Part shown: positions 1,850 through 9,235 of the stretch, in pieces
Numbering within the stretch: position 1 is the stretch's first letter
How the letters are laid out: each line of letters begins with the position of its first letter
Origin: Komagataeibacter medellinensis NBRC 3288
GTDB lineage: Bacteria; Pseudomonadota; Alphaproteobacteria; Acetobacterales; Acetobacteraceae
Assembly (NCBI RefSeq): GCF_000182745.2
Contig: NC_016027.1
Coordinates: 1,119,001-1,183,000, forward strand
DNA length: 64,000 bases
Direction: 5' to 3'
Program-made: the position numbers and the translations under genes
Notes under the pieces: model-generated
Told to the model about the DNA's origin: nothing
Database searches by the model: none
What the model saw: only the letters and a program-made list of their open reading frames with translations

Positions 1850-2710
1850 ATGGCGCTTCCCCCTCCTGACCGACCGGCACGCCGGATCCGGCGGCTGAAA
1901 AAACGCCAGCGCCCCCGCGTGCGCGGCCTGTCGTTCAACCGCCTGATCCCCAACCTCATGACCATGCTCGGCCTGTGCGCGGGGCTGACCGGAATGCGCT
2001 TCGGGCTGGAAGGGCGTTTTGGCAGTGCGGCCACCGCACTGCTCATTGCTGCATGCATTGACGGGCTGGACGGGCGCATTGCCCGGCTGCTGCGCGGCAC
2101 CAGCCGCTTCGGGGCCGAGTTCGACAGTCTTTCGGACTTCCTGTGTTTCGGCGTGGCACCCGCCTTCGTGCTGTACCTGTGGGCGCTGCACGAAGGCGGG
2201 CGATTTGGCTACATTCCGTGCATCATGTTCACGGTGTGCATGGCGCTGCGGCTGGCGCGCTTCAACGCCAGCCTGGATGATGACGCCAACCAGCCCAAAT
2301 ACGCCAGCAACTTCTTTACCGGCGTACCGGCCCCCGCAGGCGCCGGGCTTGCGCTGTTCCCGCTTTTCCTGGGGCTGGAAGCCCAGCGCCTGCACATAGA
2401 CTGGCTATATGACCTGACACGCGACCCGCTGCTGCCAGCCCTTACACTCAGCGGCACGGCATTCCTGCTGGTCTCGACCCTGCCGGTGTGGTCGTTCAAG
2501 AACTTCAAGGTACCCTCCCCCCTGATCCTGCCCACCATGCTGGGCACCGGGGCGTATGCGGCGGTTCTGGTGGCAGAGCCATGGGGTGCGCTGGCGGCGG
2601 CGGGCATCCTGTACATCCTGCTGCTGCCCATAAGCCGCCGCAGTTTCCACCGCCTGCGCCGTGAGGCCGAATCCCTGCAGGAAACCGACGACAGCCCAAC
2701 CAACGCCTGA
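1850..2710 (+). CDS. pssA: CDP-diacylglycerol--serine O-phosphatidyltransferase
   Basis: A 286-residue integral membrane enzyme that joins CDP-diacylglycerol and serine to make phosphatidylserine, the substrate of the upstream psd product. The CDP-alcohol phosphatidyltransferase signature DGx2ARx8Gx3Dx3D is complete at residues 74-96 (Asp74, Gly75, Ala78, Arg79, Gly88, Asp92, Asp96). The N-terminus is very basic (residues 10-25 hold many Arg/Lys), typical of membrane-surface attachment. About eight hydrophobic segments follow. It ends ten bases before the stop of the convergent hydrogenase-like small subunit gene; a 6-bp stem hairpin (CAGGCC/GGCCTG, 2721-2738) lies at the junction. Confidence 0.93.
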   Translation: MALPPPDRPARRIRRLKKRQRPRVRGLSFNRLIPNLMTMLGLCAGLTGMRFGLEGRFGSAATALLIAACIDGLDGRIARLLRGTSRFGAEFDSLSDFLCFGVAPAFVLYLWALHEGGRFGYIPCIMFTVCMALRLARFNASLDDDANQPKYASNFFTGVPAPAGAGLALFPLFLGLEAQRLHIDWLYDLTRDPLLPALTLSGTAFLLVSTLPVWSFKNFKVPSPLILPTMLGTGAYAAVLVAEPWGALAAAGILYILLLPISRRSFHRLRREAESLQETDDSPTNA

Positions 2711-2719
2711 CCCTGCCGC

Positions 2720-3178
2720 TCAGGCCGGGTGCGGCCTGCTGTCTGCCTGCTCACCACACCAGCTTACCAAAGCCTGTACGATCATGGTGGGAGGGGGCGG
2801 GCAGCCCGGTAGCGACAGACTGGCCTGCGCCCGTGCGCCCACCCCGCCCAGCACGGCGTAATTGGGGGTGAACAGACCCCCATCCACAGCACAGTCGCCC
2901 ACAATGGCCAGCAACCGGGGGCCTGGCATGGCCTGCCAGGCCTGTTCCACTACCGGTGCCATGTCCACCCCCAGGCTACCGGTCAGCAGGAGCAGGGCCG
3001 CCTGGCGCGGTGTGGACACGAAACGGATGGGCGCGGTCGCCGCCTCCAGCGCGCGTGAGACCGCGCGCAGTTCCAGCCCGCAGCCCGTACAGCCACCGGT
3101 ATCCATATGGAAGATATCCAGTGCACGCATGCGCGGCAGGACTGCACCTTCCGGCCAGAACAGATGCAGATACGCCAT
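2720..3178 (-). CDS. Hydrogenase-4/complex I-like small subunit (HyfI/NuoB-like), Ehr complex
   Basis: A 152-residue peripheral subunit homologous to NuoB/HyfI, which holds the [4Fe-4S] N2-type cluster. All four candidate cluster ligands are present: Cys30 and Cys33 (GGCTGCGLE), Cys96 (GDCAVDGG) and Cys126 (PGCPPPP). The start at 3178 (MAYLHLFWPEG) is chosen because AAGGGG lies six bases upstream; an in-frame ATG at 3211 has no such site. It is the last gene of the reverse-strand Hyf-like operon, separated from the large subunit by 112 AT-rich bases, unlike the other junctions, which overlap or nearly touch. Intact Fe-S ligands with a cofactor-less large subunit suggest electron transfer without hydrogen chemistry (inference). 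Confidence 0.82.
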   Translation of the reverse strand: MAYLHLFWPEGAVLPRMRALDIFHMDTGGCTGCGLELRAVSRALEAATAPIRFVSTPRQAALLLLTGSLGVDMAPVVEQAWQAMPGPRLLAIVGDCAVDGGLFTPNYAVLGGVGARAQASLSLPGCPPPPTMIVQALVSWCGEQADSRPHPA

Positions 3179-3216
3179 TGTCCACCCCTTCAAGAGGCTG
3201 CCTGAACACAACCTGT

Positions 3217-3249
3217 AGAAAATAACAGAAGCCTCACCAAAAACTTTTA
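3217..3249. repeat. AT-rich extragenic repeat remnant (candidate)
   Basis: This stretch in the gap between the large- and small-subunit genes contains AGCCTCACCAAAAACTTTT. A near match (AGCTTCACCAAAACC) occurs at 46961-46990 downstream of upp. The shared core is short, so only a tentative family of dispersed extragenic repeats is claimed. Confidence 0.3.
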
Positions 3250-3290
3250 TAATTCCACTTTCTTACCAGGCCATCCTTTTCAAACAGCTA

Positions 3291-4748
3291 TTAAAGATCC
3301 GCCCCGGCTGCCGACAGGCCCAGTGATGTCAGTATGGGGGCAACATCTTCATACACCGCGCCGGACAGGATGGCGGGCAGCGCCTGAATGTGAGCCAGCG
3401 ATGGATCACCACACCACCATGCGGCAATCCGGCCATCGTGCACCCGCAGCCAATGCCAGACCGGGCCTGCCGGGCCTTCTGCCAGACCCAGCCCTTCGCC
3501 ACACATGCCTTCCGCAGGCGGTTGTGCCGGGAGGGCGGGAACAGCGGCAACGGTACGCAGGATCTGCATGCTTTCCCCCAATTCATGCAGGCGGGTGGCC
3601 AGGCGGGCGGTCATGTCCCCGTCAGTGCGGGGAGAATGGGCAAGCCAGCCGGGAGCATAAAGGGGGTCGTGGCGCCGCAGGTCCGCCTCACCCCCCGAAG
3701 CGCGTCCGGCACAGCCTGCAATTCCCCATTGCCGGGCCGTAGCGGCGGGCAGCACACCACGCCCCATCAACTGTGCCGCCAGCCCGCGTGGCCGCCAGAA
3801 CAGACGCCTGAGCGCCATACAATCCATTTGCAGTTCCTCCAGCACCTGCGGCGCCAGAACCGCAGTGCTACGGAGAGGAAGGACATCGAACAGAAGCCGG
3901 TGGCCATAAACCGCATGGCAGAGCTGGCGCACGTCTTCCAGCAGGGTCGCGGCCTGGCTGGCCAGCCGCCCGTCGCCCAGCATATCCGCCATCTGCGCCA
4001 GAACATCCAGATGGGTGGCCACCCGTTCCAGCTCAGCGGGAACAATGGCGCCGCCGCCGGGGCTATCCGTTTCACCCGCAGCCGCCACGGCACGTGCAAA
4101 GGCCAACTGATGGGCGACCGTAGCACCTGCGTCAATCCGGGCGACAAGGTGCCCGCCCTCCGCCAGTGTATTGCCGCGCATGCGCGCACACAGGCCACGA
4201 TGGGCATAACCCATGCGGGGATGTACCTGCAGTATCCCCTGCCCCGGCAGGCCCAACCGCAGGTGAAGGGGGGCATGGAAGCCGCCCTCTGCCGGACCAT
4301 AACCCAACATGGTACCCCCTGCCCGCTCCATGACCGGACCATCGGCAAACTCCACCCCATCCGGGGCCGGGGGGGCGGGGGGCGCCCGGTCACGCAGGGG
4401 CCATGTCACGCCCCACCGGCCTTGGTCCAGCCATGGTGCGGTGCCGCTGGCACCCATGGCCTCGATCCCCCACAGGTCATGGATTATGCGCTCATACGCT
4501 CCTGCCCCCGGGCACCAGGGGGAAAGGGCATGGTACCGCCCATCCGCCACGCCAACACTGGCCATGAACGGCCCCGTACCATCGTAAAAAAGGGCATGCA
4601 CCTGCGCCCCATCCGCCCACAGCCCGCACAGGCGCGCAGCCGCATGGGGCAGTGCCTCCACCATCGTTCCCCATCCCTCCAGCGTCAGTTCAGAACGCCC
4701 GGCGCAGGCAGTGGAGCGACCCTCGCCAACAAGGTCGCGCAGGGTCAT
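3291..4748 (-). CDS. Hydrogenase-4-like large subunit without [NiFe] ligands (HyfG/NuoCD-like), Ehr complex
   Basis: A 485-residue protein with an N-terminal 30-kDa-subunit-like domain (about 1-130) and a NuoD/HycE-like large-subunit domain. In group 4 hydrogenases the first metal motif is RxCGxCxxxH; here residues 204-213 read RIDAGATVAH, so Arg204 and His213 are kept but Asp206 and Ala209 replace both cysteines. The C-terminal DPCxxC motif is replaced by GLSAAG (Ser479 and Gly482 in the cysteine positions) within an otherwise recognisable tail (LPAILSGAVYEDVAPILTS). It therefore cannot hold a normal [NiFe] centre. The start at 4748 overlaps the upstream stop by ATGA. This loss of ligands defines Ehr-type complexes. 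Confidence 0.82.
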   Translation of the reverse strand: MTLRDLVGEGRSTACAGRSELTLEGWGTMVEALPHAAARLCGLWADGAQVHALFYDGTGPFMASVGVADGRYHALSPWCPGAGAYERIIHDLWGIEAMGASGTAPWLDQGRWGVTWPLRDRAPPAPPAPDGVEFADGPVMERAGGTMLGYGPAEGGFHAPLHLRLGLPGQGILQVHPRMGYAHRGLCARMRGNTLAEGGHLVARIDAGATVAHQLAFARAVAAAGETDSPGGGAIVPAELERVATHLDVLAQMADMLGDGRLASQAATLLEDVRQLCHAVYGHRLLFDVLPLRSTAVLAPQVLEELQMDCMALRRLFWRPRGLAAQLMGRGVLPAATARQWGIAGCAGRASGGEADLRRHDPLYAPGWLAHSPRTDGDMTARLATRLHELGESMQILRTVAAVPALPAQPPAEGMCGEGLGLAEGPAGPVWHWLRVHDGRIAAWWCGDPSLAHIQALPAILSGAVYEDVAPILTSLGLSAAGADL

Positions 4749-5821
4749 GGCCCGACCCCGCCATGGTGGATGATCGCAGCCAGCACCATGCAGCCCAGAC
4801 CCAGCGACAGGGCACCCCGCATGCCGATGGTCTGCCCCATCATTGCCGCCCGGCACCGGCGCATGACCGGCCACAGGCCAATGGCCGCCAGCACCGCCAC
4901 GACAGCCGAGTGTTCCATCAAACCTACAAACACAAGGACCAGCGCCACACCGGGCAGGAAGGGTGGCCACGGCGGAGCGGTTTCAGCAGGCATGGCGGTT
5001 GCACCGACCTGCATGCAAGCTACCGCCAGCAGACAGGCAGCCAGGGGAAGTGCTGCAACACCACCCGGCAGGCCTGCCGCCATTACCGCCCACGCGCCCC
5101 ATGCAATGACGGGTTCCCTGTCCCCCCCACGCGGCAGGGCGGACCATAACAGGCAGAGCAGCCCCAGAAATGTCAGGACCGGCTGGATGGTGGGCCACAT
5201 TCCAGCCGCGTGGGCAACAACCGGCAGGGCCGCCAGCGTGTTCATTTTCTGCGCCAGCGGAGCACCGGCCATGGGGACAGTCACCGGATCGGCCAGTATG
5301 CCGCAGGCCAGCAGCACACCCCCCACCAGCAGCACCGCCCCGGCCTGATCGGCCATGCTGCCCCACTGTACCTGAAGCACGGACAGCCCCCCCTGCGCCA
5401 TGACCAGTCCGCCAAGGCCGATCCGCAACGCCTGCCATCCTGCGCGGTCAAGCCCGCGCGGGCCGTGCGCCAGCCCCAGCCTTACCGCCAGGCCCGCCCC
5501 CATGGTCACGAACAGCAGATCACACCGCCCGAACGCCACTGCAAGTGCTGCGTTGCCCGCAAGGATGAACGCCAGCACCACACCCCGGATGTCGGCATCC
5601 CGCTCCGATGCAACATGCACGCACAGTGCCAGCGCCGGACCAAGATCCATAAAGGCCTGCGCGATGGTGGGCGCAAGGCTGCCCGCCACGCCACATAATG
5701 CAAGCAGCAGCCCCGCCAGCAGCGCGCGCAGCACAAGCGGCGCCCCTGTGGCCAGCAGCGCTATGACCGACACGCCCATCCACCCCGCCAGAAGGCTGGC
5801 ATAAAGCGGCAACCCCATCAT
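4745..5821 (-). CDS. HyfF/NuoN-like membrane subunit (antiporter-like), Ehr complex
   Basis: A 358-residue, highly hydrophobic protein with roughly ten predicted membrane helices from MMGLPLYASLLAGWMGVSVI onward. Its position between the HyfE-like and large-subunit genes matches hyfF in the hyf order, and helices around LAQKMNTLAALPVVAHAAGMWP recall the lysine helix of Mrp/NuoLMN antiporter subunits. It is clearly shorter than a standard HyfF of about 520 residues, so part of the antiporter module may be missing. The start at 5821 overlaps the upstream stop (ATGA) and its own stop overlaps the next ATG, indicating tight translational coupling. The subfamily call is from context plus hydrophobic pattern. 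Confidence 0.62.
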   Translation of the reverse strand: MMGLPLYASLLAGWMGVSVIALLATGAPLVLRALLAGLLLALCGVAGSLAPTIAQAFMDLGPALALCVHVASERDADIRGVVLAFILAGNAALAVAFGRCDLLFVTMGAGLAVRLGLAHGPRGLDRAGWQALRIGLGGLVMAQGGLSVLQVQWGSMADQAGAVLLVGGVLLACGILADPVTVPMAGAPLAQKMNTLAALPVVAHAAGMWPTIQPVLTFLGLLCLLWSALPRGGDREPVIAWGAWAVMAAGLPGGVAALPLAACLLAVACMQVGATAMPAETAPPWPPFLPGVALVLVFVGLMEHSAVVAVLAAIGLWPVMRRCRAAMMGQTIGMRGALSLGLGCMVLAAIIHHGGVGP

Positions 5822-6360
5822 GACAGGTCGCCCCCCATGCGCGGAATACGGGCCAGCACGGCGTTCAGACCCGCTACCGCCACGATTGCCTCCGCCATGA
5901 CCAGCATGCTGCCCGCCTGCGCCCCCAGCAGCATGACACCATCCAGCCCGCAGGCCAGCCCCGCGCACAACGCCGCCGGACCGCGCGCGATACATGCCCC
6001 CCATACGCCACACAGCACGGCACACAGGGCGGCCATGACCATGAAATGCTGCGTCATGTCCTCTGTCCCCTGCATCATCACCTGTGTCAGCACGACAACA
6101 CAGGCCAGCCCACCAGACAGGCGGAGGCCACCGCGCTCACGCCCGCTAGCGGGCACATGCAGCATCTGCACCCCCAACAGGCCCACGCCCCCCGCCATAA
6201 GCACGGCCAGCAGGCAGTCGGGGCCAATCTGCCCCGCCTTCCAGCCCGACAGGCACACACACCCCGCAGTCAGCCCCCCATGCCAGACAAGACCACCCCC
6301 GCGCCCGCCCGAACCCGAAAGCGAACAGATGACCAGCATGCCCAGTAACAGCACCAGCAT
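5818..6360 (-). CDS. HyfE-like small membrane subunit, Ehr complex
   Basis: A 180-residue hydrophobic protein starting MLVLLLGMLVICSLSGSGG with about five to six membrane helices, a size and profile like HyfE, the hydrogenase-4 subunit with a NuoK-like part. The start at 6360 lies two bases after the stop of the HyfC-like gene, and its stop overlaps the next gene. One conserved-looking acidic patch (GTEDMTQHF) is embedded in a hydrophobic context. Direct similarity to HyfE is weak by eye, so the name rests on gene order B-C-E-F-G-I and on topology. Confidence 0.58.
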   Translation of the reverse strand: MLVLLLGMLVICSLSGSGGRGGGLVWHGGLTAGCVCLSGWKAGQIGPDCLLAVLMAGGVGLLGVQMLHVPASGRERGGLRLSGGLACVVVLTQVMMQGTEDMTQHFMVMAALCAVLCGVWGACIARGPAALCAGLACGLDGVMLLGAQAGSMLVMAEAIVAVAGLNAVLARIPRMGGDLS

Positions 6361-6362
6361 GA

Positions 6363-7331
6363 TCAGCCTACTCCCCGCCCGGCAAACAGCAGCACCCCGG
6401 CCATGATCGCACACACCAGCCCCAGCCCGGCACGCCAGGCCCCGTGGCGCAGCCCCGACAGCACGAAAACCCGCATACCCGCCACACACCCGCACGCCAG
6501 CAGCATATGCACCCCCCATAACAGTACCGCCCCCGCCAGCGGCCCGATTACGCGCGCATGGGCCAGAATGTCGGGTTCCACAATGCTTTCGGGCCAGATC
6601 AGGTCGCGTGCCAGCATCATCCATACCACCGTCAGCAGATCACGCGCGTACTGGGCCACAGCGCGGTCGGGACCGGCCAGGTCTTCAAGCATGATGGAAA
6701 ACAGCCTTGTCCCCGTCCCGCTGCCTTCTTCCACCCCCGCCAGCACCAGCGCGCCGGCCACCAGCGCCAGCGGCACGCGGATCACGTTCATGTCCGCCAC
6801 ATGCGCCTGCCGCACCAGCCCCGCCAGCGTACCATCGGGCAGGCACATGCCCAGTATCGCACAGGCCAGCAGCAGCACCGGCTGGAGCATCAGCCCCCCC
6901 GCCGCAACCCGCAGCCCGGCATGGCCCGGCCGGGGCAGCCCTGCTGCAAAGGCCACGACCACAAGCGCAAGGAATGCCATTTCCAGCAGGCCTCCCACCA
7001 CAAGCAGGTCCGACAGATCACCACCGGGCATACCAAGGGAAAAGGACGGCACCAGCATGGCCGCCCCCATGGCCGCCGCCAGCGCAAGCCATGGGGCAAG
7101 GGCGGTTACATGCGCACCCGCTGCCGAACGCACGCCCGGCTGCCGCCATGCATGCCGCAATGCGTGCCAATGCGCGGTCATGTCCAATGGGCGGCGCTCG
7201 CCCTCCATCACCGTGGCCATCCAGCGCAGGAGCCCGATCCAGATCGGGGTTGTCAGCAAAACCAGCACCAGGTGGCAGGTCACCAGCAGGGCAGCCTGCA
7301 TCCGTGCGGCCAGCAGGACCGACTCCATCAT
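6363..7331 (-). CDS. HyfC/NuoH-like membrane subunit, Ehr complex
   Basis: A 322-residue integral membrane protein with about eight helices, matching the length of HyfC/HycD/NuoH, the subunit that docks the hydrophilic arm to the membrane arm. Cytoplasmic loops carry charged segments (RWMATVMEGERRPLDM, then VEEGSGTGTRLFSIMLEDLAGPDRAVAQ) where NuoH has its quinone-site loops. The Shine-Dalgarno GGAGGA stands three bases before the ATG at 7331 and six before a second ATG at 7328, so 7328 may be the actual start. Upstream, a MITE-like element now separates it from the HyfB-like gene. Confidence 0.68.
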   Translation of the reverse strand: MMESVLLAARMQAALLVTCHLVLVLLTTPIWIGLLRWMATVMEGERRPLDMTAHWHALRHAWRQPGVRSAAGAHVTALAPWLALAAAMGAAMLVPSFSLGMPGGDLSDLLVVGGLLEMAFLALVVVAFAAGLPRPGHAGLRVAAGGLMLQPVLLLACAILGMCLPDGTLAGLVRQAHVADMNVIRVPLALVAGALVLAGVEEGSGTGTRLFSIMLEDLAGPDRAVAQYARDLLTVVWMMLARDLIWPESIVEPDILAHARVIGPLAGAVLLWGVHMLLACGCVAGMRVFVLSGLRHGAWRAGLGLVCAIMAGVLLFAGRGVG

Positions 7332-7345
7332 CGCTCCTCCACGCT

Positions 7346-7451
7346 TAGAGCAGATCCTGTTTGAATGCGTGCATTCAAACAGGTGAGGATGCTCGTCAAA
7401 ACAATAAACTGGAGCATTTTCACCGAACTGGTTTTCGATAAAAATGCTCTA
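7346..7451. mobile_element. MITE-like palindromic element with TA duplication
   Basis: About 102 bp (7348-7449) flanked by TA on both sides (7346-7347 and 7450-7451). The ends are GAGCA and TGCTC. Inside are two hairpins: a perfect 13-bp stem CCTGTTTGAATGC/GCATTCAAACAGG around a 2-base loop (7356-7383), and GAGCATTTT/AAAATGCTC (7412-7420 with 7441-7449). No coding potential is seen. TA duplication and short terminal inverted repeats are the signature of non-autonomous elements mobilised by IS630/mariner-type transposases. It resembles, from memory, abundant extragenic repeats of acetic acid bacteria. It lies between the HyfB- and HyfC-like genes and supplies the HyfB-like stop codon. Confidence 0.7.
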
Positions 7452-9164
7452 GCCACGCCATGCAATAAACACGAGCGCCGCAACACAGGCCACAAGCATA
7501 ACGACAGGGGCCGACACCGCACGCCCCTGCCACAGCCAGCCCACGCGGTGCAGCAGGGCAGCCAGCATGGCCCCGACCCGCCCGGACCCGCGCACATACG
7601 CCCGCATCCACCGCCGCCGCTGTGGGGCCACTACCAGCATATCCAGCACCATACGGGCCGGGTTGCCGGGGCCGATCTGGGTCAACGGGTCGCCAAACAC
7701 CATCCATGGCGGAACCGGGGGCGCACCCTGCTGCCACCCGGCCACCTGCCGCGCTGGCGTTGGACAGGCCAGCCTGCGTAGCAGCATGACGGCACACCCT
7801 ACCGCCATCACCAGTAAGCACAGCCGCCCCGGATGCAGCGTGGCCGTGCCATCGGGGGAGGCAAGCGCCATATCGCGCATGACTGGATGGATGGCGCCCG
7901 ATGGCATATGGCTAGCACCTTCCATCAGCCCCAGCCACAGCCCCGGCCAGATGGAAACCACCAGCACCGGCACGACCGCCAGCACCACCGGCACCATGGC
8001 ACGGCCACGTGGGTCGGCAGCCCCTGCCCCGCGCGGCGTACGCGGCCGCCCGCACAGCATGACCGCCACCACCCGCACCAGCGCCAGCATGCGCACCGCC
8101 CATCCCACCCCAAGAGCAACAAGAGCAGCCAGCAATGGCATGTCTCCAACCAACCCGCCACCATGAGACATGTCAGCCAGAAGGCGCAGCAGCATCCAGA
8201 TAATGGAAAAACCCAGCAACGGCGGCAGCCCGCTTTCCGCCAGCAGCCCAAGCGCGAACAGGGTGGACAGGCGTGGCATAAGCACACCCATCCCCCCTAG
8301 CCGCAGCAGGGAAAGCGGCCCCGCCTCACGCTCCATTACATCAAGCGCACGAGCCATGAAGACCCATGTCAGCCACGTTGCCGCCACCAGCATGGTGGTG
8401 CGACTGGCCGCAGTCGCCATGGCGGGCAGGTCATCCGCACCCGCCAGCAGCCCAAGCCCCGCCAGCACGATCACCAGCGCGCCCGAGCCGCCCATCAGCC
8501 CGGCCATGCTACCGCGCGCGCCACCCGCGCACAGTGCACGCCACGACGCGGTCATGTAGAACACGCACCCCGCCACGATCAGTATCCAGCCCCAGCGCAT
8601 ATCCGCCACCATGCCCGCCTGCGGCAGTTGCCGCCACAACCCCATGGCGGCGACCATGCCAGCAATATCCGCCATATGGAACGGGCGCGCCGCACGCGGG
8701 GCTACGCGAGGGGAAAGGGAAAGGCCCAGCAGCCCCCGTGTGCCAAACCAGCACAGGCCGGGCAGAAGCCAGGCCACCGAGGCCGGGTGGGTCAGTGCTG
8801 CCGCCAGCAGCCCAAGTGCCATCAGGTCAGGCGCATGGCGCGCGCCCAGCCGCCGGGACGGGCACAGCACAAGCACAACCCACCCCGCCCCCATGCAGGA
8901 CAGGATGGCCCCACCCGCCACAGCAAGACCCGCTGCCGCACAGGCGGCAAGATCACGCGGGGTGGAAGCGGCAAGCCCTGCAAGGCCAAGGGGCACAAGC
9001 AGGGCCACCTCCCGCCGGTATGCGAAAAGCCCCCCGGCCATCATCGAGCCACCGGGCAGGCCTATGCCAAGGCATACCAGCACCGCCACGGCGCAGGCCA
9101 CAAGCCATCCACCCCGCAAGGCCACCACCAGTGCGCTGGCCGGGCGGGGCATGAGCGCCAGCAC
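7449..9164 (-). CDS. HyfB/NuoL-like membrane subunit (antiporter-like), Ehr complex
   Basis: A 571-residue protein with about fourteen hydrophobic segments, first gene of the Hyf-like operon. The segment LFALGLLAESGLPPLLGF resembles the helix-loop conserved in NuoL/M/HyfB proton-pumping subunits, and the C-terminal extension (GWQQGAPPVPPWMVFGDPL) resembles the HyfB tail. The start used is GTG at 9164, preceded by GGGGGGAG. However, the frame stays open upstream and encodes another hydrophobic helix (IIPVILVALVLLQVG) behind a GGGAGG at 9230-9225, so initiation at an ATC/ATT codon near 9218/9215 is possible. The TAG stop lies in the end of the MITE. Confidence 0.66.
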   Translation of the reverse strand: MLALMPRPASALVVALRGGWLVACAVAVLVCLGIGLPGGSMMAGGLFAYRREVALLVPLGLAGLAASTPRDLAACAAAGLAVAGGAILSCMGAGWVVLVLCPSRRLGARHAPDLMALGLLAAALTHPASVAWLLPGLCWFGTRGLLGLSLSPRVAPRAARPFHMADIAGMVAAMGLWRQLPQAGMVADMRWGWILIVAGCVFYMTASWRALCAGGARGSMAGLMGGSGALVIVLAGLGLLAGADDLPAMATAASRTTMLVAATWLTWVFMARALDVMEREAGPLSLLRLGGMGVLMPRLSTLFALGLLAESGLPPLLGFSIIWMLLRLLADMSHGGGLVGDMPLLAALVALGVGWAVRMLALVRVVAVMLCGRPRTPRGAGAADPRGRAMVPVVLAVVPVLVVSIWPGLWLGLMEGASHMPSGAIHPVMRDMALASPDGTATLHPGRLCLLVMAVGCAVMLLRRLACPTPARQVAGWQQGAPPVPPWMVFGDPLTQIGPGNPARMVLDMLVVAPQRRRWMRAYVRGSGRVGAMLAALLHRVGWLWQGRAVSAPVVMLVACVAALVFIAWRG

Positions 9165-9235
9165 GGCGCTCCCCCCGACCTGCAGTAGTACCAGCGCGAC
9201 AAGGATGACAGGAATGATGACGGCCCTCCCGGTTG

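Follow-up and report, generated by a model that had tools for sequence, protein, structure and literature searches.

Operon organization

The window analyzed here is a 64,000-nucleotide stretch of Komagataeibacter medellinensis NBRC 3288 (contig NC_016027.1, positions 1,119,001 to 1,183,000). On its minus strand, at 2720-9215, lies an operon of six open reading frames (ORFs) arranged in the gene order B-C-E-F-G-I (Table 1). Based on the nucleotide sequence, this operon had been described as hydrogenase-4-like, as lacking HyfA/HyfH and HyfD, and as encoding a maintained, redox-linked or ion-translocating energy-converting hydrogenase-related (Ehr) complex whose large subunit has lost every [NiFe] ligand (referred to as the original prediction). 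All six minus-strand ORFs could be confirmed at this location and none of them encodes HyfA/HyfH or HyfD, a search confined to the operon itself. Judging from sequence comparisons, we consider it highly probable that the complex is maintained, is not a hydrogenase and has no canonical ion path.

Table 1. Genes, spacers and large-subunit motifs of the operon (window positions)
Feature	Position	Strand	Remarks
hyfB-like gene	7449..9215	-	588 codons if the putative ATT start at 9215 is used; the originally predicted GTG at 9164 is internal
B-C spacer, 117 nt	7332..7448	-	Dispersed repeat
hyfC-like gene	6363..7331	-	322 aa
hyfE-like gene	5818..6360	-	180 aa; assigned by position and weak collinear similarity
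hyfF-like gene	4745..5821	-	358 aa, shortened
hyfG-like large subunit gene	3291..4748	-	485 aa; NuoC-like plus NuoD/HycE-like
Loop between beta1 and beta2, GPAEGGFHAPLHL	4260..4298	-	HyfG codons 151-163; canonical relatives GP[VI]HAG[IV]IEPGHF
RIDAGATVAH	4110..4139	-	HyfG codons 204-213; place of RxCGxCxxxH; canonical relatives RxSGDxTVA[HY]
GLSAAG	3303..3320	-	HyfG codons 477-482; place of DPCxxC; canonical relatives N-x-x-Y-S-G
G-I spacer, 112 nt	3179..3290	-	
hyfI-like small subunit gene	2720..3178	-	152 aa; NuoB/HycG-like

The large subunit and its relatives

HyfG matches PF00346 (3.8e-14), with PF00329 and PF00374 below their cut-offs, and the best solved relatives of HyfG and HyfI are subunits of the E. 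coli formate hydrogenlyase (FHL) in structure 7z0s. The closest named relative is found in K. rhaeticus (76% identity in HyfG), and a separate, 26%-identical HyfG relative on the same chromosome is presumably NuoD. Both degenerate ligand motifs lie at exactly the residue numbers originally reported. None of the nine Cys residues of HyfG (positions 15, 41, 79, 187, 277, 310, 346, 416 and 446) is found at a ligand position, and no HyfG column has Cys in more than 71% of the relatives belonging to its type. In the comparison with Nqo4, Ala207 takes the place of the complex I quinone Tyr, and both proteins carry an Asp where hydrogenases have the first Cys.

A contig scan returned 534 stretches encoding a HyfG relative, of which the best 80 were examined. 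We compared 85 distinct HyfG rows, made up of this set, four further loci and the window, with L048 dropped as it stems from the same genome as L070. By our own grouping, 49 rows are referred to as canonical and 36, including the window, as stripped. Neither RxCGxCxxxH nor DPCxxC is complete in any row of either group. Canonical relatives, mostly from Alphaproteobacteria, have likewise lost the Ni-Fe Cys ligands and carry one near-invariant replacement pocket, which in window numbering comprises E159, S206, G207, D208, R427 and N477 (each 49/49) as well as Y480 (47/49). The canonical loop between beta1 and beta2 bears the hydrogenase proton-donor Glu. In our alignments, E159 corresponds to HycE Glu193 and R427 to the FHL canopy Arg478, residues whose roles in FHL are as described in PMC9474812.

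This pocket has been largely dismantled in stripped rows. Position 477 is never Asn in any of the 36. None of the 25 rows forming the acetic acid bacteria clade retains E159, D208 or Y480, while S206 is found in three, G207 in two and R427 in two, with some of these counts obtained by subtraction. The 11 stripped rows outside this clade still retain several pocket residues (D208 in 10, R427 in eight, S206 in seven and E159 in six), and dismantling was therefore step-wise. A total of 42 HyfG columns are near-invariant in canonical and lost in stripped rows; 16 of them map to the pocket stretches (151-163, 204-213, 426-427 and 473-482), and all lie beyond residue 141.

A genuine hydrogenase was considered and rejected, as HyfG has no ligands and the organism's own genome yielded neither a PF00374 match (whole genome, E 0.001; control matches in 5 of 14 genomes) nor HypD. 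The absence of hydrogenase function anticipated by the original prediction is thus borne out, and with regard to maturation genes in relatives, which it named together with H2 activity as grounds for refutation, HypD was found in 1 of 19 genus genomes (controls match in 4 of 14). The HypD-bearing Komagataeibacter genome (L163, G001) may hold a separate, real [NiFe] hydrogenase.

Membrane subunits

None of the B, C, E and F proteins has a Pfam match, the earliest sign that the peculiarities of this operon extend beyond the [NiFe] site. HyfB was assigned through a match to NF005086 (7e-12) below the equivalog cut-off. The AlphaFold model of the window HyfB (predicted local distance difference test score, pLDDT, 80; predicted template modeling score, pTM, 0.82) has HycC (7z0s_C; TM-score 0.73, E 2.8e-12) as its best PDB match, and a HycC-like fold is accordingly predicted to be kept; further fold matches include the antiporter-like 6cfw_H and 6u8y_H. 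For HyfF (AlphaFold model with pLDDT 77), a genus-only profile gave a probability of only 0.2 and showed no homology, yet a wider profile linked it to canonical HyfF via intermediates (hhalign 98.5%, E 1.8e-15), so that HyfF as an unrelated protein was rejected. HyfE was assigned by position and a weak collinear match (genus-level profile, probability 1.0). As its genus profile likewise showed no homology, an unrelated protein was also considered here and set aside, with the assignment remaining weak.

HyfB could be scored in 69 rows. All 37 canonical rows keep a Glu in transmembrane helix (TM) 5, a Lys in TM7, a Lys in TM8, a His/Lys in TM10-11 and a Glu in TM12, where helix names are assigned by presumed analogy with NuoL/M. 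This E/K/K/HK/E set is kept in none of the other 32 rows, namely the window and 31 further rows with one genome counted twice. Two further His columns were examined besides the set. By sequence scoring, the window HyfB has 0 of 4 key ion-path residues. In HyfF, the corresponding Glu, Lys, His/Lys and Glu are kept in 46, 45, 46/44 and 44 of 46 canonical rows, respectively, and among the 19 stripped rows with HyfF detected the first Glu is kept in one and the His in two, all HyfF counts being drawn from the commonest residues listed per column. HyfC carries the segment ENGRIPxDNPATHLELTMVHEAMVLEYSG, in which 12 of 13 positions examined are identical in all 40 canonical rows. Deletions have removed the Asn-Pro-His-Glu core of this segment from 31-33 of the 33 stripped rows, with the first Glu of ENGRIP kept in 17 and the last Gly in all 33. 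Most residues of the window HyfC that are invariant among canonical relatives have been changed or deleted.

These column statements for HyfB, HyfC and HyfF rest on alignments of very diverged membrane proteins and are supported by the all-or-none HyfB pattern together with an alignment-free count of Lys residues, whose median per protein for B/C/F is 6/5/7 in canonical versus 1/1/0 in stripped loci. The ion-translocating function originally suggested is not supported by these results, given that the HyfB ion-path set is absent, most matching residues in HyfC and HyfF are gone and the Ehr-type pocket has been lost too.

Joint loss of pocket and ion path

To probe how pocket and pump residues are distributed, we included 40 further loci of the same family as a second set. 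L240, a duplicate of L117, was dropped before counting, yet is still contained in the 32 degenerate-pocket loci of this set; one motif table in which several rows were misaligned (L152, L162, L170, L192 and L195 among them) was not counted, and a re-scoring took its place for loci fetched wide. Of 124 distinct rows, 34 had no scorable HyfB. Among the remaining 90, the six pocket and four pump residues are complete in 44 rows, a further 44 (31 from the first and 13 from the second set) have at most four pocket and at most one pump residue, and pocket and pump disagree in two. One of these, L225 (G063, a 1.9-Mb genome), has RVCGICGMTH and DPCYSC in a large subunit resembling that of group 4 hydrogenases; since these ligands were read by the same pipeline, it serves as a positive control. 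Perfect coupling is ruled out by the other, L220, and by the pocket residues kept in the 11 stripped rows outside the acetic acid bacteria. Overall, coupling of pocket and pump appears to be strong and step-wise, if not perfect.

In a quick HyfG tree, calculated with Shimodaira-Hasegawa-like approximate likelihood ratio test (SH-aLRT) support but no bootstrap and midpoint-rooted for drawing, the 25 rows of Komagataeibacter, Novacetimonas, Acetobacter and Endobacter group together with 100% SH-aLRT support. Long branches are seen for L070, L117 and L079. Rhodovarius lipocyclicus (L117) has lost both pocket and ion path and is nested in the canonical clade beside R. crocodyli (L097), which keeps everything. 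The stripped label needs two changes on this tree; a single origin is thus not supported, and loss would have happened at least twice if the canonical type is ancestral.

Cluster ligands of the small subunit

HyfI matches PF01058 (5e-19). As originally proposed, Cys30, Cys33, Cys96 and Cys126 are retained and occupy the ligand positions of an N2-type cluster; Cys141 is also present. In the first set, the first three Cys are found in all 34 stripped rows where HyfI was detected and the fourth in 33, with one gap. The loci without HyfI are L048 and L070 (one genome) and L089. In the second set, HyfI was found in 26 of the 32 degenerate-pocket loci (one a duplicate), 25 of which read CCCC. Of the functional features, the cluster ligands are thus the one retained most consistently, with real exceptions.

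Maintenance of the operon

HyfG is present in all 18 other genus genomes, and the complete six-gene set occurs in 14 of the 17 genus loci fetched wide, the other three being cut by contig ends; the eighteenth locus sits on a 3-kb contig and is outside the wide-locus set. Ratios of nonsynonymous to synonymous substitution rates (dN/dS; Nei-Gojobori, own script) over nine species pairs were 0.17-0.34 for G, 0.13-0.29 for I, 0.10-0.29 for C, 0.14-0.33 for E, 0.25-0.32 for B and 0.30-0.47 for F, hence 0.10-0.47 overall, with no internal stops in any of the six genes across these pairs. For comparison, the neighboring psd and pssA gave 0.02-0.11 and the nearby pepA 0.07-0.26 (eight pairs each). The two pepA values in pairs with the window were 0.24 and 0.26, so the rate of the operon is not extreme. 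Further, four hydrophobic genes followed by G persist in four family members with genomes of 1.9-2.2 Mb (L216, L217, L218 and L221), where the hydrophobic genes were placed by position and no HyfB match was found. Genus-wide presence, dN/dS, the lack of internal stops and the persisting gene order show that the operon is under selection, which is purifying for all six genes, albeit weaker than that acting on housekeeping neighbors. The claim that the operon is maintained and not decaying is thus substantiated, and a pseudogene can be rejected based on dN/dS and open frames.

Gene junctions, HyfB start codon and neighboring genes

Maintenance had originally been argued from coupled ATGA junctions. 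Such overlaps are found at the E-F and F-G junctions only (two of five), while C-E is a 2-nt gap and B-C and G-I are separated by the spacers given in Table 1. The B-C repeat occurs at 24 chromosomal places, its own included, matched over at least 70 nt at 77-100% identity. Because this spacer is at most 16 nt in all 10 relatives measured, the repeat is probably a recent insertion, and it could affect expression of the C to I genes. A terminator-like hairpin lies at 7449-7412, but the scan as a whole yielded six such sites versus a chance expectation of 4.7. The G-I spacer measures 174 nt in K. rhaeticus (L031), whereas in the nine other relatives measured the two genes lie 6-10 nt apart or overlap by 1 nt. 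The 112-nt G-I spacer of the window also contains stretches that match seven other places in the genome at 77-93%.

The upper end of the operon had been placed at 9164 and needed to be revised, as the conserved HyfB N-terminus begins at about 9215. No ATG, GTG or TTG is found there; the codon at this point is ATT, followed by CCx, and in those loci inspected in detail a GGGAGG/AAGG-like Shine-Dalgarno sequence precedes it by 9 nt. It was found in all 14 genus loci (L031-L036, L038-L043, L045 and L046), although the ATT assigned to L046 may be an accidental match lying upstream, and L041, L043 and L046 possess an ordinary in-frame start codon further upstream. Given that ATT and the Shine-Dalgarno-like sequence recur in the genus, a conserved AUU start for HyfB is likely.

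Co-occurring dehydrogenases in relatives, suggested by the original prediction as a check, were sought by clustering the ORFs of 80 loci (45 largest clusters by ORF heads, no family search). No ORF family beyond the six occurred in more than 20 of the 80 loci, and neighboring dehydrogenase partners were therefore rejected. The families reaching 20 loci are pssA and psd, which are convergent with the operon in the window; their recurrence is lineage synteny in acetic acid bacteria.

In L052, a more distant relative (positions 2409-8310), a spermidine-synthase-like gene directly follows HyfI and 2-oxoacid-dehydrogenase-like genes (E1, E2 and dihydrolipoyl dehydrogenase) adjoin, as identified by eye in this one locus.

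Functional interpretation

With the metal site and nearly all presumed ion-pumping residues lost, the complex probably does some other job for which it keeps one iron-sulfur cluster. Our favored explanation is a maintained, stripped-down member of the complex I and group 4 hydrogenase superfamily acting as a membrane-assembled one-cluster relay or sensor, a statement that we put forward tentatively and that, taken as a whole, we rate noticeably below an even chance. The complex would still assemble in the membrane with one N2-type [4Fe-4S] cluster in HyfI, and would carry out neither H2 turnover nor canonical antiporter-type pumping. Located where HyfG, HyfI and HyfC meet, the HyfI cluster may relay single electrons or act as a redox sensor. 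Since the operon encodes no ferredoxin-like subunit, a soluble donor would presumably dock directly on HyfI/HyfG. The electron, or a conformational change caused by it, could then be passed to the membrane side, with the quinone pool or a partner protein as recipient. Among these steps, the cluster ligands are the sole part backed by the sequence.

A number of observations weigh against this explanation. No partner gene recurs nearby in the 80 loci, and quinone reduction by the known route is not supported because HyfG lacks the complex I quinone Tyr. With respect to the ion path, PMC9474812 describes several HycC antiporter residues of E. coli FHL that can be mutated without loss of H2 production, so losing such residues need not abolish every proton function. 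One of the further HyfB His columns, located beside the TM7 Lys, reads His in the window and several stripped rows. L220 (G092) has lost most of the pocket yet keeps three of four pump residues and represents the sole exception that is not a hydrogenase. For five of the 13 second-set rows counted as having lost both (L206, L209, L210, L230 and L231), the HyfB hit is weak (25-78 bits) and could represent a different antiporter-like protein. Regarding the cluster, the HyfI of L204 reads GCGS, HyfI was not found in 6 of the 32 degenerate-pocket loci of the second set, and in L089 the 1.1 kb remaining before the contig end contain no HyfI. In Endobacter, HyfI (L164, G019; genome of L070, contig 6) sits apart from HyfG on a different contig as one open frame with a Ser at the first cluster Cys. 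Such broken or missing ligands in some stripped genomes argue against an essential redox role everywhere.

The main rival to a one-cluster relay or sensor is a non-redox scaffold, that is a membrane-anchored structural, assembly or regulatory platform in which the cluster merely holds HyfI in shape. The loss of the pocket, proton donor, canopy Arg and most membrane charge relays would fit such a platform, as would the intact first 141 residues of HyfG with no near-invariant column lost and the persistence of HyfG in Endobacter and L204 despite broken cluster ligands. However, the four Cys are kept in nearly all other stripped loci with HyfI although the rest of HyfI is variable (the window and its two nearest relatives share 76-81% identity), and we regard a scaffold as rather unlikely. 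A pump and a remnant, discussed below, fit worse.

A working Ehr complex as originally proposed, i.e. a redox-linked ion pump with non-canonical ion-path residues and an unknown electron donor, seems improbable to us. The six subunits and their order are the same as in canonical relatives, the fold predicted for HyfB is HycC-like, HycC antiporter residues are partly dispensable for H2 production by FHL (PMC9474812), and the first Glu of the HyfC ENGRIP motif is still Glu in about half of the stripped rows. On the other hand, the HyfB set is wholly gone, Lys is nearly absent from B, C and F, the HyfC core is deleted in almost every stripped row and the Ehr-type pocket was lost at the same time. 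A slowly decaying Ehr remnant without current function would explain the faster evolution relative to the two housekeeping neighbors psd and pssA, the repeat that entered the B-C junction and the loci in which HyfI was not found. We judge it very unlikely in view of the conservation of HyfG and the six genes across the genus, the open frames, dN/dS below 0.5 in every pair, the comparable pepA values and the like gene order kept in family members with genomes of about 2 Mb. Equally doubtful is a respiratory protein binding ubiquinone at the HyfC/HyfG cavity without pumping, e.g. a non-coupled oxidoreductase for high electron flux, which would suit the architecture of the superfamily and the way in which periplasmic dehydrogenases of acetic acid bacteria habitually feed ubiquinone but finds no quinone Tyr, no conserved loop between beta1 and beta2 in the stripped set and no recurring dehydrogenase partner.

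More broadly, a machine of the complex I superfamily may have been converted, in acetic acid bacteria and separately in at least one other lineage, into a new functional class of conserved membrane assembly with one N2-type [4Fe-4S] cluster as the only cofactor left. Members of this class would not function as a hydrogenase, a quinone reductase or an ion pump. That the HyfG pocket (N477/Y480 in particular) was lost jointly with the HyfB ion path would then indicate functional coupling of the two in ordinary Ehr complexes. We see this proposal as finely balanced, falling just short of even. It has long been asked how a complex I-type redox site drives pumping in membrane subunits far away from it. 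In the stripped type, evolution has removed the redox-site pocket jointly with the ion path, on two or more occasions provided that the canonical type is the ancestral one, leaving a residue-level map of apparent coupling (N477 and Y480, then S206-G207-D208 and R427, with HyfB E/K/K/E). Stripped lineages might thus serve as natural knock-outs for testing this coupling. The complex is also a conserved and apparently unstudied membrane assembly of industrially important acetic acid bacteria: no prior work on it in Komagataeibacter or acetic acid bacteria was found in the open-access papers searched, which mostly exclude subscription journals.

Comparison with known systems

According to PMC6349859, Ehr complexes are group 4-related complexes without Ni-Fe residues, suspected of coupling cytoplasmic redox chemistry to charge translocation on account of their antiporter-like subunits; PMC6688271 and PMC7894505 are our further sources, while PMC8076601 makes no mention of Ehr. 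Growth of Geobacter sulfurreducens on formate is accompanied by a higher abundance of Ehr subunits, whose role in this organism had never been investigated according to PMC7894505. The window complex resembles these systems in having hydrogenase-like large and small subunits together with antiporter-like subunits and no Ni-Fe ligands, and this part of the original Ehr assignment stands. It differs in having lost the canonical ion-path set and the pocket common to the 49 canonical relatives, where the assignment fails. The likeness is drawn from published descriptions, the canonical relatives being our own grouping. Descent from an Ehr-type complex is the best reading of the sequences, and because composition is shared but the ion-path feature fails, the window complex does not appear to be an ordinary Ehr.

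FHL and hydrogenase 4 provide the best solved relatives of HyfG, HyfI and HyfB (7z0s) and share the hyf-like gene order. In contrast to these, the window operon has no [NiFe] ligands and neither HycB/HycF nor HyfA/HyfH, the genome lacks HypD, and the Glu between beta1 and beta2, the canopy Arg and the Asp of DPCxxC have been lost. In complex I, a Tyr of NuoD contributes to the quinone site and NuoB carries a tandem CC. The window complex shares with complex I a NuoD-like and NuoB-like core, the absence of a Ni-Fe centre and N2-type [4Fe-4S] ligands in HyfI, whereas it carries C30xxC33 in HyfI instead of the tandem CC, has Ala at the quinone Tyr position and is accompanied by no NADH module in the operon. 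Finally, MBH and MBS of Pyrococcus furiosus belong to the same complex I superfamily and possess antiporter-like subunits that match the HyfB fold, with MBS likewise not known to have hydrogenase activity. The antiporter-like subunits of MBH and MBS are thought to work, unlike those of the window complex, which have been stripped.

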